Source of the DNA: Aquimarina sp. BL5
GTDB lineage: Bacteria > Bacteroidota > Bacteroidia > Flavobacteriales > Flavobacteriaceae
DNA length: 64,000 nucleotides
Direction of reading: 5' to 3'
Assembly (NCBI RefSeq): GCF_003443675.1
Contig: NZ_CP031963.1
Coordinates: 5,928,501-5,992,500 of the forward strand
In this document: one piece after another, positions 36,786-55,700 of the stretch
Numbering within the stretch: the first letter of the stretch is position 1
Layout: every line of letters starts with the position of its first letter
The notes under the pieces: model-generated
What the model was told of the DNA's origin: nothing
The model's input: the letters and a program-made list of their open reading frames with translations, nothing else
Databases searched by the model: none
Program-made: the position numbers and the translations under genes

Positions 36786-36829
36786 GAACATCTATTGTAT
36801 TGTAGGTTATAGTCTAAAAATTAAATAAA

Positions 36830-38126: not shown

Positions 38127-38846
38127 ATGAAATTATTATTTACACTGATTTTGCTATTCGGATCTACCCAGTATATCAACAAGGATATAACTAGAAAGGT
38201 TATTTCTGATGATGATTATAATTATACATTCTACGTTTCTAATAAGAATACATTAAGTTATCAAGATTTTAAAGAATATCATTGGTATAAAAGTGGAAAA
38301 ATTCATTCCTCTTTTGGAGGTGGTGATGGCCAAATTTTACACGGACACTATAATAAAACCTATAGAGGTAATGGAATTGCGGAACAAGGGGATTTTTATT
38401 ATGGCCTTAAGAATGATACCTGGAGGAACTGGTATGAAAATGGAAAAATAAAAAATATATCAAATTGGCAAAAAGGATTTCTTTCAGGAACTTATAATGA
38501 GTTTACAGAATCTGGTGTTTTATTAGTTAGTGGAAAATATAAAAACAATAAAAAGCATGGTAGGTGGATTAGTCATAATACCAATGATACGCTTTATTTC
38601 AAAAAAGGAGAAAAAGTAATTAAAGAAGCCGCTGAAGAAGAAATTGAGGATGATAAGAAGAAGGGTGTTATAGTAAAGACCAAAGACTTTTTTAAAGATA
38701 TTTTCAAGAAGAAAACACCTGAAGAAAAAGAGAAAGCTAAGAAGGAAAAAGAGATCCGAAAGCAAAAGAAAGAAATAGAGAAAAAACGTAAAGAGTTAGC
38801 AAAAAAGAAAGAAGCTAGTAAAAAGAACACTCCAAAAAAACAATAA
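38127..38846 (+). CDS. MORN/YwqK-type repeat protein with basic tail
   Basis: This 239-residue protein begins with a short hydrophobic stretch (about 2-14). MORN-variant repeats follow (EYHWYKSGKIH, GLKNDTWRNWYENGKIKN, GFLSGTYNEFTESGVLL, NKKHGRWISHN). The last 70 residues are an extremely Lys/Glu-rich helix (PEEKEKAKKEKEIRKQKKEIE type). The repeats form beta-hairpin ladders for protein or membrane contact. Databases often call this family an antitoxin; nothing here supports that. It leads the pilus-like operon, 4 bp before the next gene. Confidence 0.75.
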   Translation: MKLLFTLILLFGSTQYINKDITRKVISDDDYNYTFYVSNKNTLSYQDFKEYHWYKSGKIHSSFGGGDGQILHGHYNKTYRGNGIAEQGDFYYGLKNDTWRNWYENGKIKNISNWQKGFLSGTYNEFTESGVLLVSGKYKNNKKHGRWISHNTNDTLYFKKGEKVIKEAAEEEIEDDKKKGVIVKTKDFFKDIFKKKTPEEKEKAKKEKEIRKQKKEIEKKRKELAKKKEASKKNTPKKQ

Positions 38847-38850
38847 GTAA

Positions 38851-40083
38851 ATGCTAAAAGCGGGTTCTTTATTATATGCTATTTACGTTTGTCTGATTAT
38901 TGCTATTCTCAGTGGTGGACTTATATACGTCTTCACAATCAATAAAACTCTAGCAACCAGACAATCTGTAAAAGAACAGCTTATAGATCGTTGTTCTTCT
39001 TGTTTTGATTACTTTTTGTCGAATTCCACATCATTGGGTAAAACAAATACGCAACAAGTCGATTTATTTAATGATGGATTAATATGCGAATTCACAAAAG
39101 AAAGATGGGGGATGTATTCTAAATTATTGGGAAAGGCTTTTTTCAAAAAAGATACAATTGATAGAAATTATATAATTGGAGAAGTTGTTGATTCGAATCC
39201 ATTAGCACTATATCTATGTGATTTTGGAGAGGAACTTAAAATTTCAGGGATTACTAAGATCAAGGGAAATGTAAGACTCCCAAAAAAAAGATATAAAGTG
39301 GTAAATATTTTAGGTAATCAACAAGCCAATAATCCAAAACTGGAAGGGAATATTACCGTTTCTTCTCAAAATTTACCTAAAATAATTTCTCCCAAATTAG
39401 AATACCCAAATAACACTATAGAAACGACCTTGTCCAAGTTAAAGGAAAACCAACCAATCTTTCGCGGATTCGACCAGAAAACCGCTATAGTTTATTTGGA
39501 CAAAGGAGAATCATTGGATAGATTGAATATAAAAGGCAATTTTATTATTAAATCTTTAGATACCATTCGTATTGATGATACAACAAAAATTGAAGATGTT
39601 ATTATTCAAGCACCAAAAGTAGTGCTGGAAGAAGGTTTTGAAGGAAGTTTACAAATTTATGCAGATAAAGGAGTTGAAATAGAATCGGATGTCAAATTAA
39701 GATATCCATCTTGTATTGTAATAGAGGCTTCTACAAGAGACTATAAAAAGAAAATTAACATAGCCGAAGATGTAGAGATTTATGGTGGAATTGTAATCAA
39801 TGGATCGAGTTTTAGAGAAAAGCAAAATAACTTTGTTTCCATTGATGAAAACTCTTTAGTTGTAGGAGATGTTTACTGTAATGGTATCATGGAATTAAAG
39901 GGGAGTATTATAGGTTCTTTGTATACACATAAGTTACAATTAGAAACTAGAAGTTCTAAGTATGCTGATGTTATCTTAAACGGTGTAATCGATGCTACAG
40001 AATTACCAAATAACTTTGTAAGATTACCATTATTTGGAAATACGGGAGAAAATAGACTTGAAAGAATTAAAAACATACAATAA
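38851..40083 (+). CDS. Pilin-like N-terminus fused to bactofilin-like beta-helix (GspK/PilX position)
   Basis: This 410-residue protein begins KAGSLLYAIYVCLIIAILSG, a pilin-style N-terminal helix without Glu5, as in GspK/PilX. After about 100 residues with a CSSC pair, the rest is made of short regular strands reminiscent of a polymer-forming beta-helix, e.g. VVLEEGFEGSLQIYADKGVEI, INIAEDVEIYGGIVI and VVGDVYCNGIMELKGSIIGSL. Its place before the minor prepilins is where GspK or PilX-like genes lie. The combination with a bactofilin-like body is unusual. Function is inferred: tip or assembly-platform component. Its end overlaps the next gene. Confidence 0.6.
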   Translation: MLKAGSLLYAIYVCLIIAILSGGLIYVFTINKTLATRQSVKEQLIDRCSSCFDYFLSNSTSLGKTNTQQVDLFNDGLICEFTKERWGMYSKLLGKAFFKKDTIDRNYIIGEVVDSNPLALYLCDFGEELKISGITKIKGNVRLPKKRYKVVNILGNQQANNPKLEGNITVSSQNLPKIISPKLEYPNNTIETTLSKLKENQPIFRGFDQKTAIVYLDKGESLDRLNIKGNFIIKSLDTIRIDDTTKIEDVIIQAPKVVLEEGFEGSLQIYADKGVEIESDVKLRYPSCIVIEASTRDYKKKINIAEDVEIYGGIVINGSSFREKQNNFVSIDENSLVVGDVYCNGIMELKGSIIGSLYTHKLQLETRSSKYADVILNGVIDATELPNNFVRLPLFGNTGENRLERIKNIQ

Positions 40084-40426
40084 ATATTTCCTTAAAGGAA
40101 GTTCATTAATTGAATCGGTAATAGCCATTTCGATTATAGCTACTTGTTTATTAGTAGCGATTAGGTTGTATGCTGCCGTTTTAAATAGCAGCTCGTCTTT
40201 GAGTTCTTATAAAATAAAATTTAAAGTAGCAGAATTATATAATGACGCTAAAATAACTAGTGATTTTGATGATGAATTATATGAATTTGAAACATATTCC
40301 ATTCAAAAGAAAGTTGAAGATTTTCAAAGTAAAAAGGAGTTGAAGAATGTAAAATATATAGTACGAACAGCTTCAGATACTATTGTATATAACTATTTGT
40401 TAGCCAATAAAAAAAGCAATGAGTAA
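40034..40426 (+). CDS. Minor type IV prepilin-like protein (GspI/PilV-like)
   Basis: This 130-residue protein has a prepilin signature: leader ending in LKG, cleavage before SSLIESVIAISIIATCLL, with Glu at mature position 5 and a long hydrophobic helix. The short C-terminal globular part includes repeated charged segments. The ATG at 40034 lies inside the previous gene (50-bp overlap). A TTG at 40058 would reduce the overlap and still give a short leader. It overlaps the next prepilin gene by 8 bp. Confidence 0.82.
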   Translation: MEIREKIDLKELKTYNKYFLKGSSLIESVIAISIIATCLLVAIRLYAAVLNSSSSLSSYKIKFKVAELYNDAKITSDFDDELYEFETYSIQKKVEDFQSKKELKNVKYIVRTASDTIVYNYLLANKKSNE

Positions 40427-40883
40427 GGTAAGAGCATTTACCATTTTAGAAATGTTAATTAACCTGACTATTATGTCAATCATAATGGGGTTAATATATT
40501 TTGCATATGCCTCATTTGTAAAACAGGTAATAAATTACCAAGTTTCTATAGATGAACAAAATGAATTGACAACAAGTTATGTACAACTAAGAACCGATTT
40601 TTTTAATGCAGAGAGGATTGTAAAATCTTATAAAGGATTTAAAGTGATTCCTTATAATAATAAAGAAATAGAATATAAAATTACTGATAAATATCTTATT
40701 AGAAGACAAGTTCATATGCTAGATACCTTGTCTATAAATAAGCTTACGATTTCGTCTGATTTTAATATCATTACGAAAGAAGATCTTATTACTAAAATGA
40801 TCGTAGAAACGACATTATTTAATGAACCAATAGAGTTTGTAATTGCTAAAGATTATGCTCCTAATCTTAAACTGAAATTGTAA
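40419..40883 (+). CDS. Minor type IV prepilin-like protein (GspJ/PilW-like)
   Basis: This 154-residue protein has leader MSKVRA, then the FTILEMLINLTIMSIIMGLIYF helix in which Glu is mature residue 5. Position -1 is Ala instead of the usual Gly, also accepted by prepilin peptidases. The globular part (QLRTDFFNAERIVKSYKG) has the disulfide-free GspJ-like layout. Its stop overlaps the gspF start by one base (TAATG), so the genes are translationally coupled. Confidence 0.85.
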   Translation: MSKVRAFTILEMLINLTIMSIIMGLIYFAYASFVKQVINYQVSIDEQNELTTSYVQLRTDFFNAERIVKSYKGFKVIPYNNKEIEYKITDKYLIRRQVHMLDTLSINKLTISSDFNIITKEDLITKMIVETTLFNEPIEFVIAKDYAPNLKLKL

Positions 40884-42025
40884 TGGGAATTGATATAAGT
40901 AAAATTCATAAAAACACTAATGTTAAGACAGATAATAAATCATCATCTGTTGGAGATTTTTTTAGTCAAGAATTGAGTTTTTCCAAAAAAATCGGAGCAA
41001 AGGAAAAAGTAGTGTTGTATAAGGATTTATCTACACTGCTTAATGCAGGTGTAGATTTCAAAACAGCACTTGAAATATTAGCGAATCAGCAGAAAAAGAA
41101 ATACCTAAAAGAATTGATTTTGGAATTAAAATCCAAAATTGTAAAAGGAAAAAGCTTTTATGAGGCTCTAGAAGATACAGGGCTTTTTTCTTCATACGAG
41201 TATTTCAGTATCAAGATAGGTGAGGAGACTAAAAAATTAGATACTGTTCTGTTGGAGCTACATAAATATTTTAAACGTCAGATTAAATTAAGAAAACAAA
41301 TTATCTCAGTGATTACATATCCGTCATTTGTTTTAGTATTGACTGTTGGTGTTCTATACTTTATGTTGACCTATGTAGTTCCAATGTTTAAATCCGTATT
41401 TAATCAATTCGATGGAGATCTTCCAGCATTGACAGAAAATATTATTGTATTGTCGGAAAAGTTCCCGACCATATTTGTAGGCATATTGGTTGTTGTTATA
41501 ACTAGTATGTTTTTATTTAAAATATATGGACAGAATCCTTCATTTAGAAATATAAAATCAAAAATCATTTTAAAAATTCCTTTTTTTGGAAAACTAGTTA
41601 AGATGGTATATCTGGCAAGGTATTGTCAGTTTTTAGATTTACTATTGACTTCAAAAACTTCATTAACCGAATCGTTGGATATGGTGAAAAAGATGATTGG
41701 TTTTTATCCAATAGAATCATCAATTGATCCTATTAGGAATGACGTAATTAAAGGAATCCCTTTTGCGGCGGCTATGAAAAAACATAAGATTTATGAATAT
41801 AAATTAATTTCTATGGTAGAAGTGGCAGAAGAAATTAATGAATTAGACACTATGTTTTCTAGACTGGCGGATGAATATGATGAAGAAGTAGAGCATAAGA
41901 CTAAAATGATCGGAGTAGTCTTAGAACCATTGATAATTATTGTCATTGGTCTAATCGTTGGTTTAATAATGGTAGCAATGTATGCACCAATGTTTGATCT
42001 GAGTAAAATAATAAATGGAAATTAA
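40883..42025 (+). CDS. gspF: Inner-membrane platform protein GspF/PilC
   Basis: This 380-residue polytopic protein has two T2SSF domains (about 32-155 and 235-360), each a four-helix bundle (KDLSTLLNAGVDFKTALEIL and YLARYCQFLDLLLTSKTSLTESL). They are joined by helices around 140-180 (VITYPSFVLVLTVGVLYFML) and followed by a final membrane helix (PLIIIVIGLIVGLIMVAMY). It is the rotor or platform that couples ATPase motion to pilin polymerisation. The start overlaps the preceding stop by one base. Confidence 0.96.
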   Translation: MGIDISKIHKNTNVKTDNKSSSVGDFFSQELSFSKKIGAKEKVVLYKDLSTLLNAGVDFKTALEILANQQKKKYLKELILELKSKIVKGKSFYEALEDTGLFSSYEYFSIKIGEETKKLDTVLLELHKYFKRQIKLRKQIISVITYPSFVLVLTVGVLYFMLTYVVPMFKSVFNQFDGDLPALTENIIVLSEKFPTIFVGILVVVITSMFLFKIYGQNPSFRNIKSKIILKIPFFGKLVKMVYLARYCQFLDLLLTSKTSLTESLDMVKKMIGFYPIESSIDPIRNDVIKGIPFAAAMKKHKIYEYKLISMVEVAEEINELDTMFSRLADEYDEEVEHKTKMIGVVLEPLIIIVIGLIVGLIMVAMYAPMFDLSKIINGN

Positions 42026-42036
42026 AAAATTTAGAT

Positions 42037-42062
42037 TTTGTTAACACAATTTAATACTTTTG
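42037..42062 (+). promoter_or_regulatory. Likely internal promoter for the major prepilin
   Basis: TACTTTTG (42055-42062) matches TAnnTTTG exactly. The following CAAACCCTAAA extends a 15-base identity with the operon promoter region (38101-38115). A TTTG at 42037-42040 is a possible -33 box, but the 14-bp spacer is short. This 57-bp gap is the widest between any two genes of the machine. Confidence 0.5.
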
Positions 42063-42082
42063 CAAACCCTAAATCGATCTTA

Positions 42083-42523
42083 ATGAACTCATTAAGATTA
42101 CATAAAAAACCTATGAAACGCAAAAACAACTGGTATGCTGCGGCATATTCTATGACAGAGATATTGATTGTACTTTGTATTATCGGTATTTTACTCTTAA
42201 TGGTACTTCCTAGTCAGACTTCTGTAATTACACAAGCTAAATCTATAGAAGCACAGAGTATGTTAAACCATTTATATGGATTAGAGAAAAACTACTTTTT
42301 TAGACATTCTAAATATACAGCTGATTTTGATGAACTAGGTTTTGAACCTGCACTAACTATTGAACAGGGTGGGCAAGCAGTGTATAGAATTGAAATCATA
42401 GAAGCTACTACGAACTCATTCAAGGCTTCCGCTACTTCTTTATCTGATTTTGATGATGATGGTAATTATAACACCTGGGAGATCGATCAGAAAAAGACAT
42501 TGAAAGAAACAGTTAAAGATTAA
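42083..42523 (+). CDS. gspG: Major prepilin-like protein (GspG/PilA)
   Basis: The protein has 146 residues from the ATG at 42083; an ATG at 42113 and a TTG at 42038 are also open, and the promoter box argues against the TTG. Numbering from 42113, the leader MKRKNNWYAAA is cleaved before YSMTEILIVLCIIGILLLMV, with Glu at mature position 5. A C-terminal loop, DFDDDGNYNTWE (112-123), has the spacing of an EF-hand calcium loop. Calcium binding also stabilises GspG-type pilins, though at other residues. It carries its own likely promoter, fitting an abundant structural subunit. Confidence 0.88.
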   Translation: MNSLRLHKKPMKRKNNWYAAAYSMTEILIVLCIIGILLLMVLPSQTSVITQAKSIEAQSMLNHLYGLEKNYFFRHSKYTADFDELGFEPALTIEQGGQAVYRIEIIEATTNSFKASATSLSDFDDDGNYNTWEIDQKKTLKETVKD

Positions 42524-42527
42524 CTCG

Positions 42528-43016
42528 TTGGATACTGTTATTCTAATAATCATAATACTATTACTTACGTTGGTATTTATTCAAGACTTAAAGCTTAGAG
42601 CTATTCATATATTATTGCCAATTTTTATTTTAATTTTTGGGTTGATATCTTATTTTAATAATGGATATAGTCCAATTGGTCTGGTATATAGTTTGGCTTT
42701 TCTGATCATTACCTTTGGTGGTTTGTATTTGTATTTATCTGCTAAAAATAGAAGACTGACCAATCCTTTCAAGAAGAATATGGGATTAGGAGATGTGTTA
42801 TTCTTTGTTGCTGTAATTCCTTTTTTCTCTTCTTACAATTATATCTTGTTTTTTATAACTGGGATGTTGTTTTCGATACTAGGGTTTTTAGTGATCAAAC
42901 TAGTTGTTAAAACTGATTTAGTACCCTTAGCGGGACTATTAGCATTGTATTTAATTCTACTCAAAGTCGGAAGTTATATTTCAGGTTTTGATGTTTTCTT
43001 TACTAATTTTTTATGA
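42528..43016 (+). CDS. Prepilin peptidase, peptidase domain only
   Basis: This 162-residue membrane protein starts at TTG. It has the two catalytic aspartates of type IV prepilin peptidases: D20 in FIQDLKLRAI and D89 in MGLGDVLFF, the GxGD motif. Several transmembrane helices surround them. The N-terminal methyltransferase domain of PilD/GspO is missing, so it resembles TadV/FlaK-type minimal peptidases; whether mature pilins are N-methylated is open. It starts 5 bp after the major prepilin stop and overlaps the ATPase start by 4 bp. Confidence 0.88.
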   Translation: MDTVILIIIILLLTLVFIQDLKLRAIHILLPIFILIFGLISYFNNGYSPIGLVYSLAFLIITFGGLYLYLSAKNRRLTNPFKKNMGLGDVLFFVAVIPFFSSYNYILFFITGMLFSILGFLVIKLVVKTDLVPLAGLLALYLILLKVGSYISGFDVFFTNFL

Positions 43017-44443
43017 ATATGGATATAGCTAAAGAAATTACATTGACCACGGAGGAGCAACAAATTATTAATACAGATTTGGCTCATAATTACCAGATTG
43101 TTCCGAAAGAAGATAAAGGAAATAGTACTAGTTTTTATATATCCGAAACAGTTGCAAAAGACCCTATTAAGGAGGAGTTAGAATTAATCATGGGTAAAAA
43201 GGTAGAATTATACCCGGTTTCTGCTGATACCATTAATAGAGCCTTGATTTTATATTATAGAACAGGTAATACTAATAATACTCAAAACACCGCTAAATCA
43301 GAAAATTTCAGATCAACATCTCAAGATTTTTTAGAAGAACTGATTTTCGAAGCAAAAGCAATAGGAAGTAGTGATATTCATTTTGAAGTATTTAAAGATG
43401 AAGCTAGAATTCGTTATCGCATCGATGGAAAACTTACTGAGAAATATAAAATAGAAAAAGAAAATTACCTCGAATTAGTTAATAAGATTAAGATCAAATC
43501 AAATCTTGATATTACTGAGAAAAGATTACCACAAGATGGTCGTATTAACTACGATGAATTTGATATTAGGGTTTCTATTCTACCCACATTACATGGCGAA
43601 AAAATTGTGATGCGTATTCTAGGAAGAGATACAGCGCATCTTAGTATGGACAAGCTAGGAATGGAGCAGAAAGAAAAAGAACTGTATCAAGAAGCACTAA
43701 AAGCATCTAAAGGAATTATACTGATTAGTGGTCCGACAGGTTCTGGTAAAACAACTACTTTATATGCTAGTTTAAAAGAATTAAATAAAATTACCAGTAA
43801 CATAGTCACGGTAGAAGACCCAATTGAATATACGTTAAAAGGAATTAATCAAGTACAGCTTAGAGAAGATATTGGATTAACGTTTACCAGTGCACTTAAG
43901 ACATTCCTAAGACAAGACCCTGATATTATTATGCTAGGTGAGATCAGAGACGGAGCTACTGCGGAGATGGCAATTAGGGCAAGTCTAACAGGACATTTAG
44001 TATTATCTACGATTCATACCAATTCTGCTTTAGGAACAATTTCCAGGTTAATTGATATGGGAGTACCAGCCTTTCTTATTGCAGAAACACTAAAAATCTC
44101 TGTAGCGCAGCGATTGGTAAGAAAATTATGTGATTCTTGTAAAGAACATTCGGTTTTACAAGGCGATGAATATAAGAATGATGCTTTTATTGGTCTAGAA
44201 GAGCATTGGGTTGCTAAAGGATGTGAACATTGTCATTATACAGGCTATAAGGGAAGAACGGCAATTTATGAGATCATACCTATTGATAATGTATTAACTC
44301 AAGAAATAAAGAAAAATTCAACAAATCTGGAAGAATCCATTTCAGGTTATGCAGAATCGAACTTGTCGGGGAAAGCAATTCGATTAGTAAAAAATGGAAT
44401 AACATCAATTGAGGAGGTATACTCAATTATTATAGAAAAATAA
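43013..44443 (+). CDS. gspE: GspE/PilB-family assembly ATPase
   Basis: This 476-residue hexameric ATPase has an N-terminal adaptor (about 1-90, shorter than in PilB), then the N2 domain starting SSDIHFEVFKDEARIRYRIDG. Walker A is GPTGSGKTT (240-248), the Asp box is TVEDPIEY, Walker B is DPDIIMLGEIRD (302-313), and the His box is HTNSAL. A zinc tetracysteine is at C373, C376, C404 and C407. The presence of the tetracysteine marks an assembly ATPase, not a PilT retraction ATPase. It overlaps the peptidase gene by four bases; ATG at 43019 is an alternative start. Confidence 0.97.
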   Translation: MNMDIAKEITLTTEEQQIINTDLAHNYQIVPKEDKGNSTSFYISETVAKDPIKEELELIMGKKVELYPVSADTINRALILYYRTGNTNNTQNTAKSENFRSTSQDFLEELIFEAKAIGSSDIHFEVFKDEARIRYRIDGKLTEKYKIEKENYLELVNKIKIKSNLDITEKRLPQDGRINYDEFDIRVSILPTLHGEKIVMRILGRDTAHLSMDKLGMEQKEKELYQEALKASKGIILISGPTGSGKTTTLYASLKELNKITSNIVTVEDPIEYTLKGINQVQLREDIGLTFTSALKTFLRQDPDIIMLGEIRDGATAEMAIRASLTGHLVLSTIHTNSALGTISRLIDMGVPAFLIAETLKISVAQRLVRKLCDSCKEHSVLQGDEYKNDAFIGLEEHWVAKGCEHCHYTGYKGRTAIYEIIPIDNVLTQEIKKNSTNLEESISGYAESNLSGKAIRLVKNGITSIEEVYSIIIEK

Positions 44444-44446
44444 AGA

Positions 44447-46369
44447 ATGATAAGGAAAATACTATTAATTAGCTGCCTCCTAGCTATCAATGTGTTGTGT
44501 GCTCAGAATACGCAAATGACGATTGAAGAAAAATTAGAAGAAATAGCCAAAACAAAGACTGGTTTAGAAGAAATCACCCAAATGGACGTTTCTGGCTTAA
44601 CCCTTTTTGAGATTATAACCTCATTAGGAGAAGAGCATAAACTTAATGTCGTCGCAGACCCAGGATTAAGTCAAATGGTGGTCAGTAACTTTTTTGATGT
44701 AAAAGTTAAAGACGTTTTTCTTTTTCTAATCAGAAAATATGATCTGGAAGTAGAGTTTATGAATAATATCATTGTTTTTAAACAACGAGAAATAATTAAA
44801 GAAATACCAAAGCCAAAGCCTAAAAAAGAGTTAGATATCAGGTATAATAAACAAAATGATTTTCTATCTGTAAAACTTAAAAATGATTCTTTACCAGCTG
44901 TAGCAGCAAAGATTACAGAATTAGCGAATAAGAATATAGTTTTGGCGCCAGATGTTAAAAACATGAATGTTTCGGCCTATATTATTAATCGCCCTTTTGA
45001 TCAAGTAGTTGATATGATTGCTAAATCTAATCAGCTGATTGCAGAAAAAGATGATAATGGTTTTTATTTTTTATCAAAGGATATAGAAATTCAAGATTCT
45101 GAAAATAAAGGCAATAGAAACAGTAGGAGAAGAAGATCATCTTCTAGGGCTTCTACTAAAAATGTGGTCGGAGATCTAGAAATTACATTAAATGATAATG
45201 GATATTTAAATATAAAAGCATTTGATGCAAGTGCCACTGAAATCATATCAAGAGCGGCAGAATTATTAAAATTGGGTTATACCATGTATGACAAACCTGA
45301 TGAAATAGTAACGACTATTTTCTCTGAAGAAATTGATTTTGATAGCTTATTAAAGCATATGTTTAGAGGGAAAAAATTTGCTGTTAACAAATCAGATGAA
45401 TTTTACTTAATAGGAAAAGAAACAACAGCTGGTTTAAGAGCAACAGAGTTAATCCAATTAGAGAATAGAACTATTGAATCTGTTTTAGCTACATTACCTA
45501 AATCCTTAACTCAGGATGTAGAAATTCAGGAATTCGTAGAGCTTAATGGAATGCTGGTGTCAGGATCAAAACCTGTAATCATCGAATTACAACAAGTTAT
45601 TAGAAAATTAGATAAAGTTGTACCGTTAGTACAGATAGAAGTACTTGTTGTTCAGTATAATAAATCCTATGATATACAGACTGGATTACAAGCAATTCTT
45701 GGCGATGGATCCGAAGAAGTAGTAACGCAAGGAGTCATTTTTCCTAGTACAGATGTTACTGTAAATTCAGGGACTATAAATCAATTGATAGATGCTTTTA
45801 ATGGATTAGGAATTATTAACATTGGTAAAGTAACTAAAAACTTCTATGCCAATCTAAGCGCTTTAGAAAACAATTCTATTGTTAACCTAAAATCTACACC
45901 GAAGATAGCCACATTAAGCGGACACGAAGCGAGTATTTCTATAGGAGAAACCGATTATTATTTTGAGCAAACCAACAGATTGATTAATACAGGAGTCAAT
46001 GATAATATTCTACAATCTGGTCAATGGAAACCAACGGAAGCAAATTTAAGTGTAAACATAAAACCTTTTGTCTCTCTTGATGAGCACGTAACTCTAGAGG
46101 TTTCTGTAGAAAAAAGTGCCTTTTTGGGTAGAGCAGGAGAGAACGCACCACCTAGTAAGTCTACACAGAAATTCGAATCACTGATTAGAGTTCGGAATAA
46201 CGAAATGATATTGTTAGGAGGATTGGATGAATTAGAGAGAGAGAATTCTGGTAGTGGTACTCCAGTACTATCTAGAATACCAATTATCAAATGGTTTTTT
46301 AGTAGTAAAAGAAAGGCCAGAGATAAATCTAAATTACACGTTTTTATTAAGCCAACCGTAATCTACTAA
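44447..46369 (+). CDS. gspD: Outer-membrane secretin GspD/PilQ-like
   Basis: This 640-residue protein has a signal peptide (1-19, LCAQ). N-terminal N0/N1-like modules follow (about 40-110 and 130-210, with LFEIITSLGEEHKLNVVADPG). An Arg/Ser-rich linker (NRNSRRRRSSSRAS) comes next, then another module. The secretin barrel (about 395-640) carries PLVQIEVLVVQ, SIVNLKSTPKIATLSGHEAS and TPVLSRIPIIKWFFSSK, the classical secretin end. It would form the outer-membrane gate for the pilus or pseudopilus. It starts 3 bp after gspE and ends in a one-base overlap with the next gene. No S-domain is apparent at the end. Confidence 0.94.
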   Translation: MIRKILLISCLLAINVLCAQNTQMTIEEKLEEIAKTKTGLEEITQMDVSGLTLFEIITSLGEEHKLNVVADPGLSQMVVSNFFDVKVKDVFLFLIRKYDLEVEFMNNIIVFKQREIIKEIPKPKPKKELDIRYNKQNDFLSVKLKNDSLPAVAAKITELANKNIVLAPDVKNMNVSAYIINRPFDQVVDMIAKSNQLIAEKDDNGFYFLSKDIEIQDSENKGNRNSRRRRSSSRASTKNVVGDLEITLNDNGYLNIKAFDASATEIISRAAELLKLGYTMYDKPDEIVTTIFSEEIDFDSLLKHMFRGKKFAVNKSDEFYLIGKETTAGLRATELIQLENRTIESVLATLPKSLTQDVEIQEFVELNGMLVSGSKPVIIELQQVIRKLDKVVPLVQIEVLVVQYNKSYDIQTGLQAILGDGSEEVVTQGVIFPSTDVTVNSGTINQLIDAFNGLGIINIGKVTKNFYANLSALENNSIVNLKSTPKIATLSGHEASISIGETDYYFEQTNRLINTGVNDNILQSGQWKPTEANLSVNIKPFVSLDEHVTLEVSVEKSAFLGRAGENAPPSKSTQKFESLIRVRNNEMILLGGLDELERENSGSGTPVLSRIPIIKWFFSSKRKARDKSKLHVFIKPTVIY

Positions 46370-47562
46370 TGATCGTTAAACTTCTAAATAATATCCTTTC
46401 AGGAAACAGAATTCAATCTGTTCAGATCCATTTGGATGCTGATCAGAAAGAGTATAGTTTGGTTGAAATTCAGAAGAAAAATAATAACCTGGCTATTATA
46501 GAACGATATACTACCCAGAGTTTTGAAGAATTAATAACAAAAATCTCTAAAAACAAAGCTGTTATACTCTCAATTACAGGTATGGGAGTATTGTCTAAGA
46601 GGGTAAAAAATGATATAGGATACCAATCAAAAATAATATTCAATGCAGATCCCAATGATTTCTATTGGAGTGAGTATAGACAAGAAGAAGAAATTTTTGT
46701 TTCTGTAGCCAGAACAAAAATCGTGGATACGGAGATAGAATTATTCGATAAAGCTCAGATCTCAATAGTTGATTTTACTATTGGTCCTTTTGTTATGACT
46801 TCATTGAGTCCTCTTATGGAAGAAAAGGAGGTACATACAAAAAATACAATCTTACACTTTAGTAAAGAGTATTCGTTAGTAAATTTTGAAAAAAGAGAAG
46901 AACAAGGCATTCTTGAGTATTCGATTGGCGATGAAACCCTGTCTAATATGGATATCCTTTGTTTTGCAAATGCACTTAATAATTTATACCCAAATGATGC
47001 TATTAGTTCTGAAGCTAATACAATGTCTTCCAGAAAGGAAGAATTCGCCTTTAAGAAAGCATTTAATATTTTAGGAATTTTTACGCTTTCATTTTTCCTA
47101 GTCTCATTATTGATAAGCTATCTTTTACTAGGTCATTATCAGGAAGCACATCATAAAATACAGGTTGAATTAGGTCAGCAAAATGTGGCCTATTCTAAAT
47201 TAGTTTCATTAGAAAAGGACAAAGAGAATAAAGAGGCGATACTTAAGCAATCTGGCCTTAGTGATAGTAATTTTCTTAGTTTTTATATTGCTGAAATCAC
47301 TAAAAATGTTCCATCAGAGATTAATTTAAAGATGTTAAATATTTTTCCAACTACTTCTAAAATAAAAGCAGAACAACGAATCAACTTTAGTAATAACCTT
47401 ATAGAATTAGAAGGAACAGCTTCTTCTAATGCAGAGTTTACGTCCTGGATAAAAGAACTTAAAAGAGAACCTTGGATCAATAACTTAGAGATTATTGATT
47501 TTCAAAGAGAGAACAGAACGAATTCATTTAAAATCAAATTAATACTGAAATTCGATGTTTGA
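46369..47562 (+). CDS. PilM-PilN fusion / GspL-like platform protein
   Basis: This 397-residue protein has a cytoplasmic N-terminal part (about 1-225) that occupies the place of PilM or the actin-like GspL domain. Its sequence is divergent and no ATP-binding motif is clear. One membrane helix (232-254) is followed by a periplasmic coiled coil and a ferredoxin-like PilN domain (about 300-397, FYIAEITKNVPSEINLKML and ELEGTASSNAEFTSWIKEL). The architecture equals GspL. Start and stop overlap both neighbours (1 bp, 8 bp). Confidence 0.75.
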   Translation: MIVKLLNNILSGNRIQSVQIHLDADQKEYSLVEIQKKNNNLAIIERYTTQSFEELITKISKNKAVILSITGMGVLSKRVKNDIGYQSKIIFNADPNDFYWSEYRQEEEIFVSVARTKIVDTEIELFDKAQISIVDFTIGPFVMTSLSPLMEEKEVHTKNTILHFSKEYSLVNFEKREEQGILEYSIGDETLSNMDILCFANALNNLYPNDAISSEANTMSSRKEEFAFKKAFNILGIFTLSFFLVSLLISYLLLGHYQEAHHKIQVELGQQNVAYSKLVSLEKDKENKEAILKQSGLSDSNFLSFYIAEITKNVPSEINLKMLNIFPTTSKIKAEQRINFSNNLIELEGTASSNAEFTSWIKELKREPWINNLEIIDFQRENRTNSFKIKLILKFDV

Positions 47563-48082
47563 AAACCTATCATATAAAAAGAAGTTTTTTGCTTTACTAG
47601 CCTTGATGTTGGTTTTAGGTATAACCGCATATAAACGATCCTTTAGCATGACGCTAGATGCTGCTCAATTATTAGAAGAATCTAAACAGAAGTTAGAGAA
47701 AGTAAGTAACTCTCAGCAACGTATTACTAACTTGATTGCAGAAGTTTCATATTTAGACAAGCTAATAGGTAAGGAGGTGGCAAATCCGGATATAGTTCAG
47801 CAGGAAATTCTAAATACATTTACAGAAATAAATACGAATACCCAATTAGTAAAACTGGAAGCAATCCATAAAGCCAGTGATGAATATTTTAATATTTATA
47901 CGAATCGATTGATTCTAACTGGGAATTATGGTGATCTCCTAAAAACGACCTATAACTACGAAAAAGCTTTTGATTTTTCTAGGGTGGTAAGCCTCCAGTT
48001 TTATATTGAAAAAGAACCAAGAACACGAAGAAAAAAATTATTTGAACAAATTATATTTCAGAATTATGAAAAAATACGTTAG
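47555..48082 (+). CDS. PilO/GspM-like alignment protein
   Basis: This 175-residue protein has a short cytoplasmic N-terminus and one membrane helix (about 11-26). A periplasmic coiled coil follows (AAQLLEESKQKLEKVSNSQQRI), then a small alpha/beta domain (TNTQLVKLEAIHKASDEYFNI, LTGNYGDLLKTTYNYEKAFDFSRVVSLQFYI). This topology and position match PilO or GspM, the partner of PilN/GspL. The -GNYGDLLK- strand is typical of the PilO ferredoxin-like fold. It overlaps both neighbouring genes. Confidence 0.82.
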   Translation: MFENLSYKKKFFALLALMLVLGITAYKRSFSMTLDAAQLLEESKQKLEKVSNSQQRITNLIAEVSYLDKLIGKEVANPDIVQQEILNTFTEINTNTQLVKLEAIHKASDEYFNIYTNRLILTGNYGDLLKTTYNYEKAFDFSRVVSLQFYIEKEPRTRRKKLFEQIIFQNYEKIR

Positions 48083-49037
48083 TTATATAACCATAGTATG
48101 TATAAGCTTTTTTATAGGCTGTGATGATATTATTGAAGACGATATTACCAATGATTTAGTGACAATTACTGCGCCAGAGGATATGGAACAGATCGAAGGG
48201 AATTCGGTACAGTTTAGATGGAATGGAATTGATGGAGCGGACGAGTATCGAATACAAATCAACAATAAAATTTCAAACAGTGTTATCTTAGATTCTCTTG
48301 TTAATACTACTCTTTTTAATTATACTATGAATCCAGGATCATATTTATGGAGAGTAAGAGGAGAAAATTTTGCGTATCAGACTGCATATTCTTTTAATTC
48401 GGATTTTACTGTAATTCCGTCGATAGACCTTTCTGATCAAGTGGTAACGTTAGAGAGCCCTCTTAATGAAGAATTTCTGAATAATACAGATATTACTTTT
48501 TCATGGCAACCAATTAGTACGGCTACTTCTTATAAGATTAAGATTTCGAAAATAGAGGGAAGTATAGAAACTCTTATTTTCGATAATGAAGGTAATGATA
48601 TTAATAGTACATCTATAACTATAGGAAATTCTGTGATACCAGAAGACGCTAGATATAAATGGGAAATACAGGCTATAAATGCTTCAAGTATGACCATGTT
48701 TTTTTCGAATTTCTTTTCTATAGATACTCAGAATCCTCCAGAACCAGTTTTGACAGAGCCTACTACAGGTCAGACCGGTTCTGTAAATCAGGAAATCAGT
48801 TTTAAATGGACGTATACGGATACAGGAGCGATAACATCGGGAATTACGAGTAAAATCCAGATAGCTACTGATGATAGTTTTAACAACGTTATAGAAACAA
48901 ATTCTAATCCACTAACTACGAACGAGTATACATTTACTTTTACAGTAGCAGACACTTATTTTTGGAAAGTAAAGGGAGAAGATGATGCAGGAAATTCAGG
49001 TGAGTTTAGTGAAGCAAATCAAATAATTATTAATTAA
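48066..49037 (+). CDS. Lipoprotein with fibronectin type III repeats
   Basis: The protein has 323 residues from the ATG at 48066. That start gives a signal peptide with lipobox FFIGC (Cys at 19), followed by acidic DDIIEDDIT, suggesting outer-membrane placement. An in-frame ATG at 48006 lies deeper in the previous gene and lacks a signal. Three FN3-like beta sandwiches follow (FRWNGIDGADEYRIQIN, FSWQPISTATSYKIKI, FKWTYTDTGAITSGI). It sits between the PilO-like and PilP-like genes, coupled by overlaps to both, so it is probably part of the machine, perhaps a pilotin-like or surface subunit. Confidence 0.8.
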   Translation: MKKYVSYITIVCISFFIGCDDIIEDDITNDLVTITAPEDMEQIEGNSVQFRWNGIDGADEYRIQINNKISNSVILDSLVNTTLFNYTMNPGSYLWRVRGENFAYQTAYSFNSDFTVIPSIDLSDQVVTLESPLNEEFLNNTDITFSWQPISTATSYKIKISKIEGSIETLIFDNEGNDINSTSITIGNSVIPEDARYKWEIQAINASSMTMFFSNFFSIDTQNPPEPVLTEPTTGQTGSVNQEISFKWTYTDTGAITSGITSKIQIATDDSFNNVIETNSNPLTTNEYTFTFTVADTYFWKVKGEDDAGNSGEFSEANQIIIN

Positions 49038-49525
49038 TGCAAAAGAAAAAGATTAATAAAGCTTTGATTATTGCAGTTGCTCTGATTTGGGGAGTGGTTA
49101 TTTATAAGTTTGCCGCTCCATATTTTTTAACCAATGATATGGTAGTTACAGCAGATGCTCTTGTTAGTCCGCCCAAAATATTCTTAAGAAAGAAGGATAC
49201 TTTTAATCTAAATATACCAGATAGGGATCCTTTTTTAGGGAAAATAATAAGTAAAAGAAAGACTACAGTATCTGTTCCCTCTAGATCTCAAAAGAAGTCA
49301 CGATCTAAAACAGTTGTAGCCAAGAATTGGCCCAGAATTGAATACTTAGGTTTTATAAAATCAAAGGAGAGTAAGTCCCGATTAGGATTGTTACGAGTAA
49401 ATGGTGTTTTAAAAAGAGTGCGTAATGGAGCTGATATACAAGGCGTGAAAGTCAAAACTATTTCTCAAGATAAGATAACCCTTCAATTCCAAAAAGACAT
49501 CAAAGATTTCCTGAAATCCAATTAA
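49037..49525 (+). CDS. PilP/GspC-like inner-membrane connector
   Basis: This 162-residue protein has an N-terminal anchor (about 8-26) and a proline/charged linker. The DRDPFLGKI motif (residues after FNLNIP) is characteristic of PilP/GspC-type linkers. A small beta domain follows (RIEYLGFIKSKESKSRLGLLRVNG and VKTISQDKITLQF), the homology-region fold that contacts the secretin N0 domain. It is the last gene of the operon, starting one base inside the preceding stop (TAATG), and a terminator follows at 49595-49633. Confidence 0.8.
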   Translation: MQKKKINKALIIAVALIWGVVIYKFAAPYFLTNDMVVTADALVSPPKIFLRKKDTFNLNIPDRDPFLGKIISKRKTTVSVPSRSQKKSRSKTVVAKNWPRIEYLGFIKSKESKSRLGLLRVNGVLKRVRNGADIQGVKVKTISQDKITLQFQKDIKDFLKSN

Positions 49526-49934
49526 TAGATTATTGTTTTTTTGCTGAATGTAATGGAAAATACTTAGTATATATTTCATAATATATATACTATTAAAAAG
49601 GCTTTGATACGCTAAGATGTGTCAAGGCTTTTTCTGTAATATAGTTTTTTTGAAAAAAAATGAATTTTCACGGTAACATTTGAATTGTTAAAGACACAAA
49701 CTTATAGAGAAAAGTAAAATACTTTATTATCTCTTTAATATTGGGATGATAAAATATTACTAATTAATGATAATAAACTGGGAGATATTAATTTATAGGG
49801 TTTTGGAAGAATTTTTGGAAGAATCGTATGTTTTTAAGCAAATTATTAATAAACAATTAAATGTTAAAAAGTTTACGGTTTTAGCTTACTATTTTGATTT
49901 CTTTAACATATATTTGCCCTCCCAAAATAAAAAA
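49526..49934. other. Intergenic gap after the pilus-like operon
   Basis: The gap contains the operon terminator (49595-49633). An open frame from 49767 runs into the next gene, but its first 56 codons look non-coding, so I count it as leader DNA of the OmpH-like gene. Otherwise AT-rich without visible features. Confidence 0.5.
49595..49633 (+). terminator. Intrinsic terminator of the pilus-like operon
   Basis: AAAAAG plus CTTTGATAC (49595-49610, one bulged G) pairs with 49619-49633 (GTGTCAAGGCTTTTT), 15 pairs including G-U. The T run lies in the descending arm. Confidence 0.8.
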
Positions 49935-50456
49935 ATGACCATCTTGAAAAAAAATTACACTACTCTGTTGGTAATTTGCAATATCTTGCTTTTAATTACC
50001 ATATTCACTTTATTTTCATTTTGTTTTTTAAGTAGATCCGAATCAAACATTGTCTATGTTGACAATGTTACATTGTTTAATGGATTTAATATGTCCAAAG
50101 ACCTTGGAAAGATCAATAATGAGAAAATTACAAAACAAAAGAAAAAATTAGATAGTCTGTATACCATCTATTCAATCTTCAAAGAACAGAAGAATACAGA
50201 AAAAGCTACATCACTAGAAATTCAGTTGCGATCGGAGGATCAGGAATTAAGAAAAATCAACGAATATTTTTCTAATGATGTGAGCCAACAAGTCTGGAAC
50301 CGATTAAATCAATACATAAAGGAATACGGAGAAGCAAATGAATATAAAATCATCCTAGGAACTCAAGGTAATGGTAACATTATGTTTGCTGAGGATGGAA
50401 TCGATATTACAGAAAAAATATTAGAATACGCTAATAATAAATACGAAGGGAATTAA
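49935..50456 (+). CDS. OmpH-like (Skp family) coiled-coil protein
   Basis: The protein has 174 residues from the ATG at 49935, which gives a proper N-terminal membrane anchor (about 10-31). An upstream ATG at 49767 only adds a non-typical extension. The rest is a hairpin of helices framed by short strands (NIVYVDNVTLFNGFNM at the start, KIILGTQGNGNIMFAEDGIDIT at the end), the OmpH/Skp chaperone pattern. An anchored Skp-like protein next to large surface-protein genes could chaperone them across the periplasm; this is inference from context. Confidence 0.72.
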   Translation: MTILKKNYTTLLVICNILLLITIFTLFSFCFLSRSESNIVYVDNVTLFNGFNMSKDLGKINNEKITKQKKKLDSLYTIYSIFKEQKNTEKATSLEIQLRSEDQELRKINEYFSNDVSQQVWNRLNQYIKEYGEANEYKIILGTQGNGNIMFAEDGIDITEKILEYANNKYEGN

Positions 50457-50506: not shown

Positions 50507-51910
50507 ATGAGAATGATAACTACTAAATTGTTTGCGGTATTTGTATTTACATCAATTACCACTTTTGCACAAAATAACACAACAAATGAAGGGGTGAACT
50601 CTGGAGAACAAGGGGATAATAATAGTTTTTTTGGAGTAAATTCTGGACGTAATAATACAGCTAATAATAATAGCTTTTTCGGTGCAAACTCGGGTCAGAG
50701 CAACACTATAGGACAAACAAATGTTTTTGTAGGGAGAAATTCTGGTCGTAATAATATAGAAGGAAGTAATAATGTTTTTACAGGTAATGCGGCTGGATTC
50801 AATAATGCTTCTGGAAATTTTAATACATTTTTAGGAACCTTTGCCGGTAGGGAGAACATCGAAGGAAGAAGAAATGTTTTTATAGGTGGAAATGCTGGAA
50901 GAAATTCTATAGGGAATGCAAATATCCTTATTGGATATAGAGCTGGTTTTAATGAAACTGGAAACAATAAATTAATTATTGAAAATTCGGATTCAGATAC
51001 TCCTTTAATCTACGGAGATTTCGCTACAGATCAATTGGGAATTAATACCAATACCATTCCTGAGGGGTATAATTTTGCTGTGGGTGGTGGTGCTAGTATT
51101 AGTGAAGATCTTGACGCTAATAGTGTTACGATAGGAGTAAGTGAAATTGCTGACAGTAATTGGAGACGACTCCAAATTGGTCGGGAAATTGAACCAGGTA
51201 GAAGAAATTTTAATTTTGTAGTTTCTCCGAATTCAGAAACCACAGAATATTTAGCGTTTGGTATAAGTGATAAAAATAAAATAAGTAGGCAAAGTAATTA
51301 TTTTAGAGATGATTTTTCCAGAATTTCCTATATGAGTAATAGGAATCAATATTTTTTCACATTAGATCATAATGATAGAGAAGGGCAAAATCAGGCAGCG
51401 ATACAAATGCCTCTGGAAAACTCTAAAATTGTAATTGCTGGATTTGGAGATTATTTAGAAGATCAAGGACATAAATTAATTGTAAAAGACGGTACTGCAT
51501 TGATTGAAAATGCTATTTATACAAATGGACGAATAGCCATCGGTACTACAGAAGATGATCCAGGGTATGCGCTTACAGTAAAAGGAAAAGTGCACGTTCA
51601 AGAAGTAAAGGTTGACCTTTTGGGGGTTCTTGCACCGGATTATGTATTCTATGAAGACTACAAATTAAAAACTTTAGAACAAGTTGAAGATTATATTGAT
51701 CAAGAAGGACACTTGCCTAATATTCCATCTGCATCAGAAATGGAAAAAGAAGGTGTGAACCTTAAAGAGATGAATATGAAATTGCTGGAGAAAGTCGAAG
51801 AACTTACGTTATATACTATTGCACAAGAAAAAGCAATAAGAGAACAGCGAGAAGCAAATAATACATTAGAAAAACGTTTGCAAAAATTGGAGGAGCTACT
51901 AAAGCAATAA
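50507..51910 (+). CDS. YadA-head-repeat / tail-fibre-like surface protein
   Basis: This 467-residue secreted protein has a signal peptide (about 1-21). It contains eight head repeats of about 16 residues on the pattern N-x-F-x-G-x-x-(S/A)-G (NSFFGVNSGRNN, NVFTGNAAGFNN, NTFLGTFAG, NVFIGGNAG), forming a trimeric beta roll. A middle beta region follows. The C-terminus is typical of Bacteroidota tail-fibre-like proteins: DYVFYEDYKLKTLEQVEDYI, EGHLPNIPSASEMEKEG, and a trimeric coiled coil to the end. It has neither a YadA membrane anchor nor a T9SS domain, so its export route past the periplasm is unclear. Confidence 0.85.
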   Translation: MRMITTKLFAVFVFTSITTFAQNNTTNEGVNSGEQGDNNSFFGVNSGRNNTANNNSFFGANSGQSNTIGQTNVFVGRNSGRNNIEGSNNVFTGNAAGFNNASGNFNTFLGTFAGRENIEGRRNVFIGGNAGRNSIGNANILIGYRAGFNETGNNKLIIENSDSDTPLIYGDFATDQLGINTNTIPEGYNFAVGGGASISEDLDANSVTIGVSEIADSNWRRLQIGREIEPGRRNFNFVVSPNSETTEYLAFGISDKNKISRQSNYFRDDFSRISYMSNRNQYFFTLDHNDREGQNQAAIQMPLENSKIVIAGFGDYLEDQGHKLIVKDGTALIENAIYTNGRIAIGTTEDDPGYALTVKGKVHVQEVKVDLLGVLAPDYVFYEDYKLKTLEQVEDYIDQEGHLPNIPSASEMEKEGVNLKEMNMKLLEKVEELTLYTIAQEKAIREQREANNTLEKRLQKLEELLKQ

Positions 51911-51942: not shown

Positions 51943-52536
51943 ATGATATTCAAAAAGGAATATATCTTCTTTTTGATTGGGATTCTTTTGTTTGTATCCT
52001 GCCAAAAAGAAAAGATAACACCAGTATCAGATAACGAATATAAGCTGTTTAATTTGGAACAAGCTGGTTGGAAATCTAAATCTGTTTCGCATTTATTTTC
52101 GGAAATAGAATACAAGGCAACATTGGTTCCATTACAATATTATATTCTAAAAAATGAAGGAAGCGACAACTTACAAAAAGTCGATTCCATTTATGAGTCT
52201 CTTAAAAATGAGCGAATTATAGAAGTAGAGTTTCAACAAGAAAAAGAAGATGACTTACTGAAAGAGATATATACAAACAGAGATTATGAAAGCTCAGTAA
52301 AGTATATGTCCTTTTATATAGAGAAAGATTTTAAGGTAGTCACGCAAAAAGGCGATACAGTCAATTGTTCTGGAGTTACGTTTGAGCGTAATTTCAAAGT
52401 TGCACCCTTTAAAAGATTGCTGCTCCATTTTGGTAATATTCCAGAACAAGAAAATATTAAACTGATATATAACGATAATTTATTCGGTAACGGATTAATG
52501 AAGTTTAATTTTAAAGAAACACCTATTAAGTTGTAA
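51943..52536 (+). CDS. Lipoprotein of unknown function
   Basis: This 197-residue protein has lipobox LLFVSC (Cys20), followed by QKEK, which suggests anchoring in the inner leaflet or periplasmic side rather than surface export. The mature domain mixes strands and helices (YILKNEGSDNLQKVDSIYESLKNE, FYIEKDFKVVTQKGDTVNCSGVTFERN). No family is recognised. It lies in the same orientation between the head-repeat protein and the giant SpvB-like protein, and may share their transcript. Confidence 0.7.
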   Translation: MIFKKEYIFFLIGILLFVSCQKEKITPVSDNEYKLFNLEQAGWKSKSVSHLFSEIEYKATLVPLQYYILKNEGSDNLQKVDSIYESLKNERIIEVEFQQEKEDDLLKEIYTNRDYESSVKYMSFYIEKDFKVVTQKGDTVNCSGVTFERNFKVAPFKRLLLHFGNIPEQENIKLIYNDNLFGNGLMKFNFKETPIKL

Positions 52537-52733: not shown

Positions 52734-55700
52734 ATGATCAATACAATACGAAAGAGTAGGGTAACAAAGGTAATTGCAAGTTATTTGGCAATCCAGATGA
52801 TAATTCAGATGGCACAGCCTATGCAATTATTTGCATTGACTAGTGGGCCATCACAACCAGAGTTTAATTCATTTACACCTATTGGGACTTCTGATATGGT
52901 GAATTTGTCTTCTGGGAATTTTAATTATAATATCCCGATTATGGATGTGGGTGGATATCCATTAAACTTAGCGTATGATTCTGGTGTAACGATGGATCAG
53001 GAAGCTTCTTGGACAGGATTAGGTTGGAACCTTAATATAGGTCAGATTAATAGACAGGTACGTGGTATTCCGGATGATTTCAAAGGGGATTTGATGGAAT
53101 ATGAGAATAACATGAAACCTAATGTTACGGTGGGTATTCATACAGCACTGGATCCACAGGTTTTTGGTATAGAAAAACCAGATGGTGTTGCTAAACCTCC
53201 AAAACCCTCGCCTGATGAAGACCCTGTACCAACTATTAGTATCGGAATGGGGATTAATTATAATAATTATACTGGAATTTCTTTTAAACCATCATTCGGA
53301 TTGAACTTTCAACTTACGGATAATGTGAAGGTTGGGTTTGAGGCATCAAGCTCTGCAACAGATGGCGCTACGATAGCTCCTAATGTGAGTGCTAAAGGGG
53401 GTAGCAAATCAATTTTTAAAGGTGCAGTAGGAGGAACCCTTAATGCAGGAGTATCTTACAATTCTAATCGAGGGTTGACTTCTTTTAATATGTCAGCAAG
53501 TATTGATACAAAACCTTTTAAGGTTGGTGAAAATACTAAAGGTAAGGATGCCGAGAATTCATTTTCTACTAGCGGTTCAGGTAGTATTTCTTTTACAAAT
53601 CCAACTTGGACTCCACGCAAACGAACTGCGTTTACAGATATCAATGGTACGGTAGCAGTTTCTGTTGGTGGAGATATATGGGGATTAGATGGAGAATTTG
53701 AGCTTTCTGCAATGGGATCTGTACAAAAAATTAAGGATCCAATTAGAACTGAAAAAGCATATGGATATGAATTTACCGGGTTCGCAGAAACGAATGATAT
53801 CCTTGATTATAATAGAGAAAAAGAGCAGTTAATAGGTAAAAACACACTAGCATTGCCTACAACTACTTATACATATGATTTATATAGCGTTCAGGGCCAA
53901 GGTGCGGGAGGAATGTTTAGACCTTTTCGTTCTCAGGTAGGACAAATTAACGATGAGTTTATACAAGACGAAAGCGATAGCTTTAGTCTTGGAGTAGAAA
54001 TAGAACCAGGAACTGGACAACATGTAGGGGTTAATTTTACAACAGCTCCTTCAGAAAGTCATACAGGTATTTGGAATACAAAAGCATTAAAGCATTTTAA
54101 ACAAGAAAGGGAAGATACTAGAAAAGGCGATGAAAAATTAGATTATGAGCCTGTATATTTTAAATATATCGGAGAACCACGTGTAGATGCAGATCAACAA
54201 TTATTTACTGATTTAGGAGGATATGATCCAGTTATGTTTAAAATAGGTGGAAGTAAAAAAAGTTTTAATAAATATGCTGATAACCAGTTTCTAAAAAAAA
54301 CATATAATGCTGATCTAACGCAAGGAGAATATGCTCCTCTACCCAGTTTTTCTTCTAAGTTCAAAAGGCAAACTAGGGATGTACGAAATCAGAATGTTCA
54401 AAAACTCACTAAAAAAGAACTTAAGGGTTTTTATAAAAAAGAATATTACAATCAAAGAGTTAATACGAATGCTGCTGCACATCATACGGCAGAGATTAGA
54501 GTACAAAACGCAGATGGTTCTACCTATGTATTTGGAGAAACTGCTTATAATAAAGTAAAAGAGGAAGTTACTTTTACTACAGATAGTAATACGTATAACT
54601 GTGCAACCGGATTAGTAACTTATAATCAGGGAGAGAATTCTACAGGAAATAGCAGTGGTATCGATAACTTTTTTAGTGGTACAAAAACACCTGCCTATGC
54701 ACATACGTATCTATTGTCATCTGTGTTATCATCAGATTATGAGGATCTTAGCGGTGATGGCCCTACGGATGATGATTTAGGAGCATACACTAATTTTATC
54801 TATACGAATAAAGAGGATGCCTACAAATGGAGAGTTCCTTATAGTAAAGCTCCGAGGCAAGCTTCCTATGATGCAGGTCTTAATACGAGTAGGTCTGATC
54901 AAAAAGGAAATTACATTTATGGAGAAAAAGAAATAAAATATATTGATAAAATTGTAACAAAAACTCACGTAGCAATTTTTGAATTGTCGCCACGTAAAGA
55001 TGCTAGAGGAGCTGCAGGAAAAGATGGGGGAATTCCTTCTTCAGGAAGTCAACAAATGTATAAAATTAATAAAATCCGATTATACTCTAAACCAGAGGCT
55101 ATAGCAGCAAATATTTTGGATAATGATACAGAGAATGATTTACCGATTACTGCAATTAAAACAGCTCATTTTGTATATGATTACTCCCAGTGTAAAAATA
55201 TAGAGAACAATCATGGAGAGACTCCAGATGAACCTCATGAGTTAAGTAATCAGGGTGGTAAATTGACTTTGCAAAAGGTGTATTTTACCTATAGAGAATC
55301 TGAAATGGGAAAATATACTCCCTATACTTTTAATTATGGAACGGGCGAGTATGTAGATGGGAAATGGGTTCAGGATACCAAGTCAAATCCTGATTATAAC
55401 ATGAAATCGTATGACATATGGGGTAATTATAAGCCTAATATTGATGGAGGGTGTAGTACGATAGATCCAATTACAGCTCCAGAATTTCCTTATGTGCAAC
55501 AAGAAGATCAGCCTCTACAGAATTCATATGCATCTGCCTGGACATTAACATCTATTGATTTACCATCGGGAGGGCGAATGGAAATGGAATATGAAACAGA
55601 TGATTATCAGTATGTTCAGGACAGAAAAGCGATGCAAATGTTTAAAGTAGTTGGGGCTGGAGAAAATGCTACTTCTTCTGATCCAGAATCAAATCATAAA

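Follow-up and report, generated by a model that had tools for sequence, protein, structure and literature searches.

In this study we analyse a stretch of 64,000 nucleotides from Aquimarina sp. BL5 (the window; positions 5928501-5992500 of a single-contig complete genome of 6.01 Mb). It carries a compact operon for a type IV filament machine at 38127-49525, followed by a cassette of genes for giant Rhs proteins. The operon probably encodes a secretion machine related to type IVa pili, of the kind referred to as the Bacteroidota type II secretion system ('T2SS'), and the giant Rhs proteins would be its main cargo. In a wider form, for which we see about even chances, the Bacteroidota 'T2SS' would be a secretion system of its own, descended from type IVa pili and dedicated to the release of giant two-part Rhs toxins, with a cassette chaperone, a lipoprotein and a beta-solenoid tip pilin, and it would form an unrecognised route for toxins across Bacteroidia. 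The genes themselves are directly established, as are the absence of PilT, the co-occurrence and linkage with Rhs and the variability of the Rhs tails; from these last observations, the tails being toxin-like, we infer an exporter that is dedicated to Rhs proteins or has them as its principal cargo. A first-pass annotation of the stretch had been right about the machine and had overlooked the adjoining conserved Rhs cassette, which is the best clue to its function.

Secretin and Rhs genes occur together. In a survey of 249 Flavobacteriaceae genomes from 186 genera, with association tests that are not tree-aware, we found the secretin in 54 genomes. The N-terminus of class-1 Rhs proteins was detected at E<=1e-12 in 40 genomes, or in 36 at 100 bits or more, rows below 100 bits being left out, and that of class-2 Rhs proteins in 55, or 45 once rows representing the class-1 gene itself were removed. 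Either class was present in 61 genomes, namely in 53 of the 54 secretin-positive genomes against 8 of the 195 secretin-negative ones (Fisher p 2.6e-44), and 187 genomes had neither secretin nor Rhs classes. The one secretin-positive genome without class-1 or class-2 Rhs, G621, has a 1509-aa Rhs-like frame adjoining its operon. The genes are also linked: in 44 of the 54 genomes a Rhs gene is located no more than 40 kb from the secretin, and in 41 no more than 20 kb, while placing the 140 Rhs loci at random gave 2.6 expected within 40 kb and a maximum of 11 in 100,000 simulations (contig ends ignored). In a class-wide sample of 129 genomes Rhs was found in 22/22 secretin-positive genomes, 20 of which lie outside the family, against 17/107 others (p 1.4e-14); 12 of the 22 have Rhs within 40 kb, as judged by eye from the coordinates. 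A search for the secretin at phylum level, positive in 180 of 392 genomes, reached into many families outside the class, and we kept it out of the statistics. The class-2 N-terminus had been considered as a negative control and was dropped, since it tracks the secretin itself, and condensation domains of nonribosomal peptide synthetases (NRPS) were used instead. These occurred in 47 genomes, 17 of them secretin-positive (odds ratio 2.5, p 0.011); a mild shared tendency thus exists, far smaller than the Rhs link.

By secretin, the closest named relatives of the system belong to Aquimarina. In a sample of the genus, a secretin was matched in 30 of 37 genomes, and 20 loci mapped from 18 of these 30 (our own genome excluded) comprised 16 of type A, which is window-like with a secretin of ~640 aa, and 4 of type B, with a secretin of ~740 aa. 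All six type A loci with at least 77% secretin identity carry the cassette; a relative at 73% has none in the mapped stretch. In the group at 61-63% (n=9) a giant Rhs gene lies downstream in G021 only, Rhs-core frames lie upstream in two others, and the contig of G023 stops at the operon. Among type B loci the cassette is located inside the operon in G033, together with a transposase-like gene, and directly adjoins it in G010c; in the other two of the four no cassette was labelled. The cassette lipoproteins of both types are homologous. One genome, G010, holds three machine copies (L031, L041, L042), one of type A and two of type B.

In a wider set from named genomes we viewed the 80 of 487 confirmed loci that rank best by secretin similarity, with flanks of up to 10 kb: 32 had a giant Rhs gene and 14 a Rhs core or tail frame only. 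This is a recount: an earlier figure of 50 of 80 loci with Rhs was too loose, as some 'RHS2' labels matched a non-Rhs region. Loci with a giant Rhs gene come from Aquimarina, Flavobacterium, Mesonia, Kordia, Flavivirga and Psychroserpens, among others. Across 115 mapped secretin loci, two of them read twice, the position of the giant Rhs gene varied: 32 type A and 2 type B loci have it downstream in the orientation of the operon, 5 type A and 18 type B loci have it upstream in the reverse orientation, one type A locus has it on both sides and two type B loci have it in another position. No giant Rhs gene is labelled at 48 type A and 7 type B loci; the stretches are short, and a gene may have been missed there. 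Short frames with a Rhs core and a tail, resembling displaced toxin tips, are found upstream on the opposite strand in Flavobacterium and others (L148, L161, L164, L167, L185, L187, L194).

The cassette proteins have the features of polymorphic toxins of the Rhs type, with RHS_repeat and TIGR03696 matches and variable C-terminal tails. Near the operons there were 17 core-bearing frames with complete ends; as one gene is counted twice among them, 16 are distinct, and these fell into 16 clusters of unrelated tails. In nine core frames that were scanned the Rhs core matched every time, seven times over cut-off, and their tails gave an LHH nuclease and an Ntox35 domain (one each, over cut-off), a glucosaminidase and a GIY-YIG domain (one each, below it) and no match in five. 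The second Rhs protein of G033 ends in a C-terminal Tox-SHH domain. In Rhs repeats, core and variable toxin tails these proteins resemble the Bacteroidetes Rhs toxins of Zhang et al. 2012 (PMC3482391). The table in that paper files them under 'T2SS/Sec-dependent', with a signal peptide as signature and no signature neighbour genes for the pathway, whereas here they are linked to a specific machine.

A complete type IV filament machine, with a role in secretion or as a non-retracting pilus, had been proposed from the window; our analysis upholds the machine and favours secretion. The machine had also been described as less common in flavobacteria and poorly studied, which is overstated: identical gene order has been reported for the putative T2SS of Cytophaga hutchinsonii (chu_3191-3202) and Flavobacterium johnsoniae (Fjoh_0611-0622) by Wang et al. 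2017 (PMC5553014), and the secretin is present in the 54 family genomes mentioned above. The window operon matches the order of this Cytophaga type, minor pilins-F-G-O-E-D-MN-O-(x)-P, in a comparison of gene order and numbers alone, and at the place of its fibronectin type III (FN3) lipoprotein the published lists have an unassigned gene number. Rhs terms are absent from the text of that paper, and its authors describe cellulose use and adhesion. In the trees of Denise et al. 2019 (PMC6668835) the Cytophaga system groups with type IVa pili, not with T2SS, and it is considered a secretion system whose origin may be independent of T2SS; the accessible text contains none of the words Rhs, polymorphic and effector.

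The class of the machine is debated, with published trees pointing to type IVa pili and our own score comparisons mixed. The best matches of ATPase and secretin among PDB sequences are PilB and PilQ. For the ATPase the NCBIfam models of PilB and GspE give scores of 468 and 464, neither over cut-off, and the GspD and GspF models outscore those of PilQ and PilC for secretin and platform, again none over cut-off. Like a canonical T2SS, the window has pseudopilins, a platform, one ATPase, a secretin and a prepilin peptidase; unlike it, it has no NCBIfam T2SS match over cut-off (bits of those required: GspE 463.8/630.25, GspD 134.7/351.35, GspF 248.6/424, GspG 21.3/88.85), and the Cytophaga system sits with type IVa pili in the published trees (PMC6668835). 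With type IVa pili it shares PilB- and PilQ-like sequences and a PilN domain, and it differs from them in the stronger GspD and GspF scores and in having no PilT, the mark of a retracting pilus. The absence of a retraction ATPase, noted at first for the operon, extends to the whole 6.01 Mb genome, which has a single secretin and a single T2SSE match over cut-off, while PilT stays below it; pilT_fam was over cut-off in none of 57 genomes scanned.

How such a machine could work may be pictured as follows. Rhs chains would enter the periplasm via Sec, where the Skp-like protein and the lipoprotein of the cassette could hold or dock them. The single ATPase would drive the growth of a short filament whose cap consists of minor pilins and the beta-solenoid tip pilin, and the growing filament would push the Rhs cargo out via the secretin. 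With no PilT, the filament would not be actively withdrawn. Toxic activity would reside in the variable C-terminal tails, with neighbouring cells as the probable targets. From sequence and gene context we infer these targets, the parts played by chaperone and lipoprotein, and export as such; the beta-solenoid fold of the tip pilin is predicted.

Several observations weigh against Rhs export by this machine. Passage of a Rhs protein through a secretin cannot be taken for granted, and for this reason we propose chains that are chaperone-held and not fully folded. Ten of the 54 secretin-positive genomes have no Rhs within 40 kb; among these, the contig with Rhs also carries the ATPase or a fragment of it in G057 and G596, and a Rhs-like frame adjoins the operon in G591 and G621. 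Of the best 80 of 487 loci, 17 are fully flanked and lack Rhs, and 17 more lack it at incomplete loci. Conversely, 8 of 61 Rhs-positive genomes in the family and 17 of 39 in the class have no secretin; three class-1 Rhs genomes without secretin have no ATPase of this kind at all. Such genomes would suit an exit of Rhs proteins by the type IX secretion system (T9SS) or another route, with the two gene sets merely sharing hosts and islands. One class-2 Rhs protein has a sub-threshold match to the SprB repeat, which is associated with the T9SS. A T9SS route has been hypothesised for TANFOR, another class of Bacteroidetes polymorphic toxins (PMC7073777). We nevertheless consider this explanation improbable: the NRPS control is only weakly linked to the secretin, the adjacency recurs in different orientations, and a T9SS C-terminal sorting domain was found neither in the first Rhs protein of the cassette nor in the C-terminal part of its leucine-rich repeat (LRR) protein nor in the scanned Rhs frames, which may carry other sorting signals. 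Moreover, Rhs tracks the secretin, whereas the T9SS is, to our knowledge, near-universal in Flavobacteriaceae.

The tip pilin raises a different question, since it resembles ComZ, the DNA-binding competence pilin of Thermus thermophilus. Both have a large beta-solenoid domain and an argued location at the tip; the two differ in the comparison of structures (TM-score 0.2, root-mean-square deviation 14.4), and DNA binding is known for ComZ alone. Together with the kinship to PilB and PilQ this might speak for a competence or adhesive pilus, whose Rhs neighbours would be coincidental or only indirect users of it. Judged by PilT, which is not over cut-off in any of 57 genomes, and by the Rhs association, which is far above chance, a pilus of this kind seems very unlikely.

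In C. hutchinsonii, mutants of the t2s genes could no longer use cellulose or adhere, with hardly any change in their extracellular protein profiles (PMC5553014). These phenotypes do not readily fit a dedicated Rhs exporter, and they would suit a machine for export of broad substrates or for surface display, as proposed for C. hutchinsonii, with Rhs and EMN-domain proteins as part of its cargo. The EMN domain, 75 residues at the C-terminus of fibre-like proteins (50507-51910 in the window; also L100, L105, L126, L132), stands beside our operon and, in G440 and G607, inside the operon between the genes for ATPase and secretin. A secretin is present in every one of the 21 genomes with at least 4 listed copies. 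It is possible that EMN proteins are a second cargo or partner of the machine. The domain is, however, found in 107 of the 249 genomes, including 67 of the 195 secretin-negative ones, and the near-complete co-occurrence with Rhs is unexpected for a general exporter. A broad exporter therefore seems to us rather unlikely, if less so than the two preceding explanations, and Rhs proteins as the main cargo remain our preferred reading.

The individual genes are in keeping with a filament machine. All 13 were found on the + strand as first described, closely packed with intergenic spacings from -50 to +87 bp; the 87 bp gap, before the major pilin, varies with the choice of start codon. Degeneracy or splitting in close relatives had to be considered, and the genes are intact and conserved there, so this is not a chance arrangement. 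The operon opens with a MORN-like protein with a signal-like N-terminus (38127..38846; MORN_2 1.6e-4, below cut-off), which is the first gene in most type A operons. The next gene (38851..40083), initially taken for a separate beta-helix accessory, is itself pilin-like and encodes the putative GspK-like tip pilin, without Glu5. Two minor pilins follow, one with an uncertain TTG start, a prepilin-type motif and a weak N_methyl match (40034..40426; 0.046, below cut-off) and one with N_methyl 2.2e-4 (40419..40883; below cut-off). After the inner-membrane platform GspF/PilC (40883..42025; T2SSF 7.8e-43) comes the GspG-like major pilin (42038..42523, likely ATG start 42113; ComP_DUS 2e-4 and PilA-type 2.5e-9, both below cut-off). 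In the prepilins of this system (40034-42523) Ala mostly replaces Gly before the cleavage site. Next are the prepilin peptidase A24 (42528..43016; Peptidase_A24 5.1e-6), the assembly ATPase PilB/GspE (43013..44443; T2SSE 2.3e-123) and the secretin (44447..46369; Secretin 4.7e-34). A PilM-N-like protein (46369..47562) has PilN at its C-terminus (7.1e-6). The PilO position (47555..48082) is conserved in relatives in place and N-terminus, and the FN3/immunoglobulin-like lipoprotein (48006..49037, likely start 48066; fn3 1.6e-4, below cut-off) is conserved in place; the PilP/GspC position (49037..49525) closes the operon. Of the component names given at first, platform, peptidase, ATPase, secretin and the PilN part thus have firm domain matches, the pilins are weakly supported and the PilM part is unconfirmed; PilO has no Pfam match and PilP a weak one (T2SSB 0.005), and both names are therefore based on gene order. 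The MORN and FN3 genes named as extra components did give matches, if below cut-off. A flavobacterial promoter pattern was absent from all seven gaps examined and had 5 matches in the window against 5.7 in shuffles, so that no conclusion on transcription units can be drawn. Upstream (33774-37732) lie a 1003-aa protein that reads as GH3/beta-lactamase-like and an aldo/keto-reductase-like gene, a position kept only in the nearest relatives.

The unit does not end at 49525, as had been assumed. The cassette begins 241 bp past the operon, with its genes in the window all on the + strand, and extends beyond the window's end. Its first gene encodes a Skp/OmpH-like periplasmic protein (49767..50456; OmpH 1.1e-10) that recurs beside Rhs with both operon types. 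It is followed by the fibre-like EMN-domain protein (50507..51910; no Pfam match, domain alignment A2), for which the label 'S74' was dropped, there being no S74 domain among its matches, and by the cassette lipoprotein (51943..52536), a homologue of the type B one (hhalign probability 94, E 1.2e-7). The first Rhs protein (52734..59141; 2135 aa) has a conserved N-terminal motif (family alignments A1, A5) and no Pfam match; its relative in G010c matches RHS_repeat at 7e-5. An AlphaFold2 model of residues 36-1170 was unusable (pLDDT 38.1), and a profile search against PDB sequences gave no match, so that a shell fold would be hypothetical. The LRR/immunoglobulin-repeat protein with a YD-like end (59177..64000; 3812 aa including the part beyond the window) is followed by a 244-aa protein and then by a DUF6443-RHS-core protein. 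Lying between two Rhs genes, it contains near-identical internal blocks that suggest recent duplication. The DUF6443/RHS-core gene beyond the window (L064:8361-19269) is in three frames here and in one in G013 and G003, by decay or assembly error.

The machine itself is already published, and its link to a Rhs cassette appears to be new. A word search of open-access literature, covering titles and the starts of abstracts, found no such link, so that earlier notice elsewhere is possible; one F. columnare paper contains both terms, mentioned apart from each other. In conclusion, a widespread secretion machine without known direct cargo gains a specific and testable candidate, and the Rhs toxins of Bacteroidota, for which the signal peptide has so far indicated Sec and nothing further, gain a candidate exporter for the outer membrane. 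If this holds true, a toxin exporter would have arisen from a type IV pilus by a path separate from that of the classical T2SS, and the operon with its cassette would allow antagonism to be traced in the genomes of Bacteroidota from sea and soil.

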